A stretch of 64,000 nt of DNA, taken from contig NZ_JAFJMJ010000002.1 in assembly GCF_017309385.1 (NCBI RefSeq), positions 1,364,001 through 1,428,000 on the forward strand. Reading direction: 5' to 3'. Below are positions 20,332 through 22,691 of this stretch, piece after piece; the stretch's first letter is position 1, and each line of letters begins with the position of its first letter. The position numbers and the translations under genes are program-made. Source of the DNA: Amycolatopsis sp. 195334CR (lineage in GTDB: Bacteria > Actinomycetota > Actinomycetes > Mycobacteriales > Pseudonocardiaceae). Below the pieces are notes generated by a model. That model saw nothing but the letters and a program-made list of their open reading frames with translations. It ran no database searches and was not told the origin of the DNA.

Positions 20332-21087
20332 TCAGCCGGTCCGCGAGCGCCGGTACTCCCCGGGCGGCACGCCGTAGGCGGCGCTGAACAGGCGGGTGAA
20401 GTGCGCGGCGTCGGTGAAACCCCGGCTTCGCGCGATGGCGTGCACGGGCCGGGTGCGCAGATGCGGCGTGACGAGGTCGTGGCGGCAGCGTTCGAGGCGC
20501 AGCCGCCGGATCCAGGCCGCCGGGGTGGTGTGGTCGGCGGCGAACAGCCGTTGCAGCCTGCGCAGGGACAGGTGGTGCGCGTCGGCCACGACCCGGGGTG
20601 AGAGGGACGGGTCCCCGAGGCGTTCCTCGATGAACCGGTCGATCCGCGCGCGCAGCGCCCGATGCGGGGTTTCCGGCGGGTTCGCCGTGTCGAGCGGCAG
20701 GGCCAGGGTGGCGGCGATCAGGTCGACGGTGATCGAAGCGAGGGCCGGCGCGTCGGCGCGGCTGAACTCCGGCGCGCGGTGGCTGAGGTCGAGCAGCCAG
20801 CGCGAGAGAACCCCGCCGAGGCCGCGTTGCCCGTCCAGCGGCCGCGCGAGCTCTTTCGCGGGCAGCGGCAGTACCGAACGCGGCACTTGGGCGACCACAC
20901 CCGACGGCCCGGCCGGGCACCACCGGTCGGCCTGGGTCAGCACCGCGTCCCCGTCGAGGAACACGGTGAGCCGCACCGCCTCCGGACCGGTCTGGCGCAC
21001 CGGTGAGCGCGTCGTCGCCGAGATCTGCACGTCCCCCAGGTCCAGCACCCGGATCCACCCCTGGTCCTCCGTGAGCTCAGCGTGCAT
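20332..21087 (-). CDS. AraC-family transcriptional regulator
   Basis: 251 residues. The last ~100 residues carry the double HTH of AraC proteins: ADAHHLSLRRLQRLFAADHTTPAAWIRRLRLERCR and AIARSRGFTDAAHFTRLFSAAYGVPPGEYR. The N-terminal part resembles the AraC-binding-like domain of the AraC_binding_2 type. It is downstream of the P450 gene on the same strand (64-base gap) and could be cotranscribed with the peptide/P450 pair, which it may regulate; equally it could be an independent gene. ATG 21087 gives the expected length. Confidence 0.85.
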   Translation of the reverse strand: MHAELTEDQGWIRVLDLGDVQISATTRSPVRQTGPEAVRLTVFLDGDAVLTQADRWCPAGPSGVVAQVPRSVLPLPAKELARPLDGQRGLGGVLSRWLLDLSHRAPEFSRADAPALASITVDLIAATLALPLDTANPPETPHRALRARIDRFIEERLGDPSLSPRVVADAHHLSLRRLQRLFAADHTTPAAWIRRLRLERCRHDLVTPHLRTRPVHAIARSRGFTDAAHFTRLFSAAYGVPPGEYRRSRTG

Positions 21088-21151: not shown

Positions 21152-22246
21152 TCATGGGGTACGCGGTCCGATGGTGTGCCGGGGCGGGGAGAACACCGCG
21201 GTGACACAAGGGATTTCGCCGTGGCGGGCCAACGGGATGGGCGGGCGCTCGGCCAGGTGTGCCGCGGCGGCGGCCAGCCAGCGCACCTCGAACCGCGCGC
21301 CGACGCAGGCGCCGGGGCCGGTCGCGAAGGGCAGGAAGGCTTCGGGTCGCCGGGGGATGCGGGCCCACCGGCCGGGGTCGAACAGGTCCGCGTCCGGCCA
21401 GTACCGGGGATGCCGCTGCAGGGCGTAGGCGGGCACGACGATCTCGTCGCCGCTCAGCACCGCGAGGCCGCCGATGCGGTGGTCGTGCCGCACGGGCCGC
21501 CGGTGCTGCCAGGCGGGCGGCCACAACCGCAGCGTTTCCAGCGCGACGTGCTCGGGCGGCAGATCCCGGACCGGCTCCTTCGACCGCGTGGCGGCCACCA
21601 GGTCGCCGGGTCGCTGGGCGCAGATCAGCCAGGCGAGCGCGGCGGCGGAAGCGCCGGCGAATGCGGTCACGGCCCGAAGGTACACCTCGCCGCGGATCGC
21701 GGGATCCAGTTCGGGGAACCCGGGCACAGCGCCGTCGGCCACCGCCCGGCCCGCCCGCGCGGTGAGGCGCTGGAAGGTGTCGAGGTCCGGGAACCGGCGG
21801 GCGCCGGTCATTATGTCGTGGAACACGTGGTCCAGGAATTCGCCGACCGTGGCCCGCAGGTCGCTGTGGTTTTCGAGGCCCAGCGGCCGCCGGTGGGCTC
21901 CGGCCACCGCGTGCAGGCAGGCGCGGTGCAGGTCCCCGCGGGCGGCCGCGACCGTTTCGACCGCGTCCGCGGCCGCCCGTCCGGGATCCTCGTCGGCCAG
22001 GCATGTGTGCACCCACCGGTTCAGCGCCACGCACTCCGGTGGTGGCAGCCGGACGTTGCCGGGCCGCCAGAACGCGGGTACGTGGTCCAGCCGGCGGCCG
22101 GTGTCGGCCAGGACCCGCCTGGCCGCCTCGGCGTCACACACGACGACGCTGCCGGCGAGCGTGCGGAAAACGGGTGTGCGCACGCAGCGTTCGTGCAGTT
22201 TGCGCATACCCCGCCAGCTCGTCCGGCGGATCGGGCCGAAGGACAC
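21152..22246 (-). CDS. Cytochrome P450, probable peptide cross-linking enzyme of a RiPP pathway
   Basis: 364 residues, short for a bacterial P450 (usually about 400). Heme-binding loop FATGPGACVGARF (about 307-319, Cys314), ExxR motif ETLR (237-240) and FDPGRW of the meander are all present. The I-helix (about 188-207) reads TAFAGASAAALAW and lacks the usual acid-Thr pair used for oxygen activation in hydroxylating P450s. That, the small size and the position three bases after the stop of a 31-codon aromatic-tailed peptide gene suggest it forms aryl or aryl-ether bonds on that peptide, as in atropopeptide, cittilin and biarylitide pathways. GTG 22246 is read in frame right after the peptide stop, implying translational coupling; ATG at 22206 is an alternative start. 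No redox partner is encoded nearby, so host ferredoxins would be needed. Confidence 0.85.
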   Translation of the reverse strand: MSFGPIRRTSWRGMRKLHERCVRTPVFRTLAGSVVVCDAEAARRVLADTGRRLDHVPAFWRPGNVRLPPPECVALNRWVHTCLADEDPGRAAADAVETVAAARGDLHRACLHAVAGAHRRPLGLENHSDLRATVGEFLDHVFHDIMTGARRFPDLDTFQRLTARAGRAVADGAVPGFPELDPAIRGEVYLRAVTAFAGASAAALAWLICAQRPGDLVAATRSKEPVRDLPPEHVALETLRLWPPAWQHRRPVRHDHRIGGLAVLSGDEIVVPAYALQRHPRYWPDADLFDPGRWARIPRRPEAFLPFATGPGACVGARFEVRWLAAAAAHLAERPPIPLARHGEIPCVTAVFSPPRHTIGPRTP

Positions 22247-22249
22247 CGG

Positions 22250-22345
22250 TCAGTAGTAGCTGTAGCCGAACGGCGCCCACGCCAGGCGCCGGATGCCGCG
22301 TTCCATTCCCAGCCGCCGCATGACCGGCCGTACCAGACGCTTCAT
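22250..22345 (-). CDS. Putative RiPP precursor peptide with aromatic C-terminus
   Basis: 31 codons, ATG at 22345, TGA at 22252-22250. A purine-rich ribosome site (AAGGGAAGAG) lies just upstream. The N-terminal part is basic and looks like a leader (MKRLVRPVMRRLG, then MERGIRRLA); the C-terminal nine residues are WAPFGYSYY, with one Trp, one Phe and three Tyr. This matches the layout of P450-modified RiPPs, where a short precursor ends in an aromatic-rich core and the P450 gene follows directly. The core boundary is inferred; LAWAPFGYSYY or a shorter tail are possible. No protease or methyltransferase gene adjoins; leader removal would rely on other peptidases. The exact core is not one I recognise from tryptorubin, amyxirubin, cittilin or biarylitide. 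Confidence 0.75.
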   Translation of the reverse strand: MKRLVRPVMRRLGMERGIRRLAWAPFGYSYY

Positions 22346-22582
22346 GTGCTCTTCCCTTCATTCGTCGGTGTGTGTTTCGACCTTCGCAGGCGGTGGCGCG
22401 GTGGCCATTGATCTTCCGTGCCACCTTCTTGGCGATTCGCGCCGACGGCTCCTCGGAACACGGCGGACCGGCGGTGGTGGCGACGAGCCCGCAGACCGCG
22501 GCGGTGGTGATCGCGATGGTCAGGTCGCCGTGCCGGAGGGCGAGGCCGCGGGGTGGTCGCGGCGGACGGTGGGGTGGCCGAC

Positions 22583-22656
22583 AGCCGCCCCGCCAGGACT
22601 CGAACCTGGAACCTCCGCGTTCGTAGCGCGGCGCTCTCTCCCATTGAGCTACGGGG
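22583..22656 (-). tRNA. tRNA-Arg (anticodon ACG)
   Basis: 74 bases folding into a full cloverleaf: acceptor CGCCCCG/CGGGGCG, D-stem GCTC/GAGC, anticodon stem CCGCG/CGCGG with loop CTACGAA (anticodon ACG, reading CGU/CGC after inosine modification), five-base variable loop, T-stem CCAGG/CCTGG with TTCGAGT. CCA is not encoded. Its 3' end points toward the RiPP locus on the same strand. Confidence 0.93.
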
Positions 22657-22691
22657 CGAAAAAAGGTGCGCGGAACAGAGAGTCCGTCACG

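Follow-up and report, generated by a model that had tools for sequence, protein, structure and literature searches.

A short aromatic-tailed peptide gene kept beside a cytochrome P450 gene in Pseudonocardiaceae: a predicted two-gene P450-RiPP cluster

Cyclic peptides made by cytochrome P450 enzymes attract interest as scaffolds and biocatalysts, but the tiny genes of their precursors escape gene callers. In the established model, a leader recruits the P450, the P450 links aromatic residues of the core, and release of the product is attributed to a ubiquitous protease (PMC11450843). On the minus strand of a 64,000-nucleotide stretch of the genome of Amycolatopsis sp. 195334CR (hereafter the window), a reading frame of only 31 codons ends in a run of aromatic residues directly ahead of a P450 gene. 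The question raised by this locus is whether the small frame encodes the substrate of the neighboring enzyme, and if so, to which group of P450-modified peptides the pair should be assigned.

A peptide gene kept upstream of a P450 gene

A sequence-only reading of the locus had described a minus-strand frame of 31 codons with a ribosome-binding site, placed three bases before a P450 gene in the same frame, and the sequence confirms this arrangement (Table 1). The frame translates to MKRLVRPVMRRLGMERGIRRLAWAPFGYSYY followed by a stop codon, and its ATG is preceded at a distance of 5 nt by the ribosome-binding site AAGGGAAG; purine-rich sites are also found before the starts of the relatives' precursors. 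Three nucleotides (CCG) follow the TGA, after which a frame of 364 residues opens with GTG. Pfam recognizes this frame as a P450 at 64.9 bits (cut-off 22.8), and in the remaining family loci with an intact start the P450 begins with ATG. The peptide has no match in NCBIfam or Pfam, and a promoter scan at the locus returned nothing.

Table 1. Features of the peptide-P450 locus, with positions in the window
Feature	Position	Strand	Basis
Ribosome-binding site AAGGGAAG	22351..22358	-	Read from sequence
Precursor peptide gene, 31 codons + TGA	22250..22345	-	Kept upstream of P450 at 7/7 family loci; 0 nonsynonymous and 4 synonymous differences vs G138
Proposed leader, residues 1-22 (MKRLVRPVMRRLGMERGIRRLA)	22280..22345	-	Invariant R3, R6, P7, RRLG, ERG, RRLA (7 rows); cleavage site inferred
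Proposed core, residues 23-31 (WAPFGYSYY)	22253..22279	-	Invariant W23, P25, Y28, Y30, Y31 (7 rows)
Cytochrome P450, 364 aa, GTG start	21152..22246	-	Pfam p450, E 8e-18; homologs 61-82% (six other family genomes), 49% (Luteimonas)
P450 I-helix block, residues 188-208, AFAGASAAA replacing the usual G-x-E-T-T	21623..21685	-	Alignment of 25 P450s
ExxR motif, E237-R240	21527..21538	-	Sequence and alignment of 25 P450s
Heme-binding motif FATGPGACVG, Cys314 ligand	21299..21328	-	Sequence and alignment

The window holds 378 readings 20-45 codons long; of these, only the precursor carries at least five aromatics in its last nine residues, and none of 30 first-order Markov random windows held a tail as aromatic. 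A looser filter (three aromatics including Trp in the last ten residues) gives six matches in the window, or five besides the precursor per 64 kb, and the aromatic tail alone would therefore be no proof. Conservation upstream of the P450 is the stronger test. Homologs of the P450 (E <= 1e-40) were found in 7 of 390 sampled genomes of the family Pseudonocardiaceae, the window's own included, with Saccharothrix, Goodfellowiella and Actinophytocola as named carriers, and the peptide lies directly upstream of the P450 in all seven. An independent protein search with the peptide recovered the same 7/7 genomes. When named genomes were scanned with two peptide patterns from the P450, six loci came back: four already known, one in Luteimonas sp. 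Y-2-2-4F and one in Saccharothrix carnea. The last of these (L021) is only a C-terminal fragment, and is the one P450 match without a visible peptide. The sequence-only reading had put forward co-occurrence of the peptide with homologous P450s as a check, and this did not refute it: peptide and P450 stand together at 8/8 loci where the P450 gene is complete or nearly so (seven in the family and Luteimonas). The gene pair is real. It is also rare and patchy in distribution, as drawn from genome samples and the one pattern-based scan: in wider samples, the P450 profile (396 genomes from the phylum, 1e-25) and the peptide (298 genomes from the order, 0.001) each matched the window's own genome and no other.

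The precursors of the family share the leader motif RRLG[MV]ERG[IV]RRLAW and the core pattern W-x-P-(1-2 residues)-Y-[ST]-Y-Y. The peptide of G138 is identical to that of the window, and the others read VKRLMRPLMRRLGMERGVRRLAWAPVGYSYY in Saccharothrix sp. NRRL B-16348, MRRLIRPVMRRLGVERGVRRLAWNPQYTYY in Goodfellowiella, MKRMMRPVMRRLGMERGIRRLAWAPFGYSYY in Actinophytocola, VKRLMRPLMRRLGMERGVRRLAWAPVGYTYY in S. luteola and VKRMIRPLLRRLGVERGIRRLAWRPIYTYY in G076. Within the core, Trp is followed by A, N or R, the residue ahead of Tyr is F, V, Q or I, and either Ser or Thr stands between Tyr residues. The Tyr-x-Tyr spacing is constant in the seven family rows, and the Trp-to-Tyr distance is one residue shorter in two of them. 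At the six intact loci the precursor stop and the P450 start lie 3, 2, 3, 3, 2 and 25 nt apart, the longest gap being that of G076. The Luteimonas pair (L020:5798-7107) has a diverged upstream peptide, MMKRVMKQAVRSMARAVGAESRPRKWIWPAYYKI, which retains MKR and G-x-E in its leader; its core (KWIWPAYYKI) retains W, P and YY, with no Tyr-x-Tyr. Between the end of this peptide and the first conserved residue of the P450 lie 98 nt, and either GTG 5917 or GTG 5974 could serve as the P450 start. The occurrence of the pair in a gammaproteobacterium hints at inter-phylum transfer or an old origin.

Both the precursor and the P450 are under purifying selection. The two precursor genes that encode the identical peptide differ at synonymous sites only (Table 1), and dN/dS of the P450 ranges from 0.26 to 0.52 over 21 pairs. 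The 120 bp upstream of the precursor start are 40-55% identical, versus 73-96% for the precursor (10 pairs, 5 loci); this comparison omitted the Actinophytocola precursor, which was taken into the synonymous and dN/dS analysis. When reading frames of at least 90 aa around the eight loci were compared all against all, the P450 alone, together with shadow frames over it, was common to all of them. Because the upstream 120 bp have diverged and the neighbors differ, the precursor-P450 pair is the conserved unit, and it recurs in several unrelated genomic settings. In S. luteola (L013), the precursor has lost its stop and the reading frame of the P450 is broken near codon 21, with the core still intact, which indicates that core decay does not come at once. 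A second Goodfellowiella precursor on another contig (L042, G201:C33:34149-34235), MKRLIRPLMRRFGAERGVRRLAWAPFGYETF, has the core WAPFGYETF: its leader is nearly intact, the terminal Tyr-Ser-Tyr-Tyr is gone, and just about the first 15-22 P450 codons are recognizable behind it. This is how a substrate and its enzyme should behave in decay, as a single case that carries no statistic.

The two Saccharothrix loci are syntenic, and further neighbor matches were found for the pairs G138-Saccharothrix (48%) and G138-Goodfellowiella (34%). A protein of about 1000 aa (34%) adjoins the pair downstream in Actinophytocola and upstream, divergently, in Goodfellowiella; it is a transcriptional regulator of the AfsR/SARP type with BTAD, NB-ARC and TPR domains (L018:7077-10136 and L017:2939-5884). 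Regulators of this type are common in actinomycetes, and their position beside the pair at two loci, on different sides, is possibly due to chance. Directly behind the window P450, on the same strand, lies an AraC-type regulator (20332-21087; closest to FeaR in NCBIfam, at 90.6 bits with a cut-off of 199). It is not supported as a cluster member, having not been found beside the other loci. An HTH protein adjoins the Saccharothrix locus, so that regulators of differing kinds (AraC-type, HTH and AfsR/SARP) adjoin the pair at several loci. The window neighbors also include a hemerythrin and a TAP-like alpha/beta hydrolase, and other scanned neighbors are a YCII protein, a protein of the isopropylmalate-dehydrogenase type and a solute-binding/VWA protein. 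Among the neighbors identified, which are a part of all, there was no peptidase, transporter or second tailoring enzyme common to the loci.

A tRNA-Arg (ACG) gene, the sole tRNA found in the window, occupies 22584-22658, 239 nt upstream of the precursor. Integration of the pair at this tRNA was considered and rejected, its 3' end being without a repeat in the window. In a plasmid collection, the sole match of the window P450 was a haloarchaeal P450 (26% of the query), and that of the Luteimonas P450 was one Streptomyces plasmid, whose locus gave no match with the stricter aromatic filter and one short match, at the far end, with the loose filter.

Related P450s and the altered I-helix

A profile of the family P450s, searched at 1e-22 against 199 genomes from one genus of the class (probably Streptomyces), matched 11 places in 7 genomes. 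Nine of these 11 loci passed the small-ORF filter, and one of the nine (L028) was discounted as an antisense frame inside the P450 frame. At three loci (L023, L024 and L031, in G1185, G1203 and G1219), a frame of 28 codons ending in FWYLYHHI lies about 9 nt downstream of the P450, and these loci constitute a putative second P450-RiPP type. At five others (L025, L027, L029, L030 and L032), a tiny frame lies upstream and ends in RY-x-YWPY (four loci) or MYTYWNIFN (one locus); these are putative further P450-RiPP pairs. Given the filter's background of five other matches per 64 kb, less weight falls on YTYW, seen once, than on the recurring types.

We placed these enzymes in a tree of 25 P450s, comprising seven of the precursor-linked family, the 11 profile matches and seven others from the window's genome. 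The family P450s group with the FWYLYHHI P450s (10 rows, 100/99), all 15 P450s beside tiny aromatic frames fall on one side of a branch (98/98), and a grouping of the family P450s with the YxYW type alone was rejected (p-AU 0.0046); the joined P450 branches are long, and the tree program warns of this. The seven loci from the window's own genome gave a single filter match (L005), on the opposite strand and at the edge of the P450 frame. The FWYLYHHI enzymes form the sister group of the family, and both groups lack the I-helix acid and carry an LRLWP-x-AW stretch. They differ in that identity is 34% over 192 residues and that the precursor of the FWYLYHHI P450s is downstream and unlike. The PDB entry 9ulw matches the window P450 over residues 224-359 only (E 5.1e-17), and matches the L023 P450 almost throughout (E 3.1e-64).

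The I-helix Glu is absent in 15/15 of the P450s beside tiny aromatic frames and present in 10/10 of the others, where it is followed by Thr in nine and by Val in one. Loss of the I-helix Glu-Thr pair fits radical coupling without ordinary oxygen insertion, as in CYP121. The missing pair is a candidate sequence marker for further peptide cross-linking P450s. The P450Blt of the biarylitides has both E238 and S239 in its I-helix (PMC10929621), so that loss of the acid marks the present P450 neighborhood and is no general law for cross-linking P450s.

A predicted cross-linking function and its alternatives

Judged by the composition and conservation of the two genes, it is very probable that they form a minimal two-gene P450-RiPP cluster in which the P450 cross-links the aromatic residues of the core and the product is cyclic. 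The leader (about residues 1-22, with RRLG[MV]ERG[IV]RRLA) would dock on the P450, and the core, W-x-P-(1-2 residues)-Y-[ST]-Y-Y, would be fed to the heme, where the enzyme would oxidize and couple aromatic side chains. The likeliest linked pair would be Tyr28-x-Tyr30, placed first because its spacing is constant in the family loci; Trp23-Tyr would be the second candidate, since its spacing shifts by one in two loci. Each kind of link has a precedent: ApyO joins the two Tyr of a Y-L-Y motif (PMC13192836), ScaB joins W-x-x-Y (PMC12352619), and links from Trp to either His or Tyr are made by cyptide P450s (PMC12299652, PMC11002830). The Luteimonas core, without Tyr-x-Tyr, argues against one shared link position across the clade. 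Host proteases may then remove the leader, and are proposed because no conserved peptidase gene was seen beside the two genes. The structure model is poor (mean pLDDT 58, from a five-row alignment) and lends this reading no support. The collected loci supply natural substrate variants and decayed copies, with which both the recognition of the leader and the position of the links can be tested directly.

A bolder and more tentative proposal, to which we give perhaps one chance in three, is that the pair represents a separate RiPP family. Such a family would use RRLG-x-ERG-[IV]-RRLA as a leader code of its own, where atropopeptides have KSLK, and a P450 without the I-helix Glu-Thr that makes more than one link (Tyr-x-Tyr and Trp-Tyr) in a nine-residue core, yielding an undescribed polycyclic scaffold from a bare two-gene cassette that has spread between Actinomycetota and Pseudomonadota (Luteimonas).

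The pair might instead be a diverged atropopeptide cluster of the tryptorubin type, with the same P450 class, a lengthened core and R-R-L as the worn remnant of KSLK, which we regard as unlikely. Atropopeptides are defined by a KSLK-type leader, Trp at core position 2 and a class-defining P450 (PMC11450843). The two-gene layout and the short basic leader are in keeping with this origin, as is the distribution of atropopeptides in Actinomycetota and in Xanthomonas and relatives (PMC11450843), beside that of the present family in Pseudonocardiaceae and Luteimonas. Trp would stand at position 2 only if cleavage left A22 as the first core residue. Against it, none of six KSLK-type motifs (KSLK, RSLK, ESLK, KSRK, KPLK, PSLK) occurs in any of the seven distinct precursors, though the definition requires one. 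As a source of atropopeptide P450s for comparison, the pattern KSLK-x-WYIWY was found in 0 of 394 genomes of the class and KSLK-x-WY-x-W in 0 of 80 genomes of the window's own genus; KSLK-x-W-x-x-W was found in 4 of 199 genomes (the genus of G412), none of them with a recognizable P450 within the 3 kb of the locus. Judged from the leader motif, the pair is not an atropopeptide as these are defined in print. With the defining motif missing, kinship with the atropopeptides is so far an analogy only.

We think it very unlikely that the P450 hydroxylates or otherwise oxidizes the peptide with no ring linkage. P450s do usually insert oxygen, and SroB also hydroxylates Trp (PMC11002830), but the I-helix here is without the usual Glu-Thr pair, the neighboring P450 types adjoin aromatic-tailed frames of the cross-linking kind, and the constant Y-x-Y spacing in the family loci suits a link. 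That the small frame is no substrate at all, and serves as a regulatory leader of the P450 gene by upstream-ORF coupling or attenuation, is scarcely credible: the tight spacing and the lack of a clear P450 ribosome site suggest translational coupling, but the amino acids are conserved while synonymous sites drift, the peptide is still kept across the wider gaps in G076 and Luteimonas, the core decays in a copy without the P450, and the coding strand has no terminator-like hairpin.

Comparison with known systems

With cross-linking as the preferred reading of the pair, its closest parallels can be set side by side. Atropopeptides (tryptorubin, amyxirubin and scabrirubin, including the bitryptides) likewise have two genes, a short aromatic-tailed precursor and one P450, with no dedicated peptidase in the cases characterized in PMC11450843. 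They differ in that their cores are mostly hexapeptides, as opposed to the nine residues of W-x-P-..-Y-x-Y-Y here. Genome mining that insists on KSLK would miss the present pair. The YSYY tail may have a parallel in the cittilins, in whose Tyr-rich core the Tyr side chains are described as bridged by biaryl and aryl-ether links (PMC11450843).

The aminopyruvatide P450 ApyO, a RiPP cross-linking enzyme that joins Tyr to Tyr (Y-L-Y), is the best NCBIfam resemblance of the window P450, yet at 51.4 bits this falls far under the cut-off of 525. The aminopyruvatide precursor ends in Asp and the cluster has an MNIO enzyme (PMC11002830). Membership of this group was rejected, as 7/7 family precursors end in Tyr-Tyr rather than Asp and the match lies below the ApyO equivalog cut-off. 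Membership of the biarylitides was likewise rejected, given 31 codons here versus a pentapeptide precursor encoded by an 18-bp gene (PMC13417212).

The sequence-only reading had called the core unfamiliar. Six core and leader strings are absent from the literature searched, and the description holds for that literature. Published mining has covered 20,399 actinomycete genomes, and another study sorted 1057 P450-RiPP clusters into 11 categories (PMC12299652); the gene family may already be listed in such surveys. Among the cyptides (roseovertin, rubrin, lapparbin), a short precursor stands beside an adjacent P450, and Trp-Tyr and Tyr-Trp links are precedented (PMC12299652, PMC11002830). They appear to differ from the present pair in motif, its leader and core motifs not being among those taken from PMC12299652 and PMC11002830. 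By gene content as read from the sequence, namely a short aromatic-tailed precursor gene and an adjacent P450 kept at every one of the eight loci, the pair belongs to this wide group of P450-cross-linked RiPPs, the cyptides in the broad sense.
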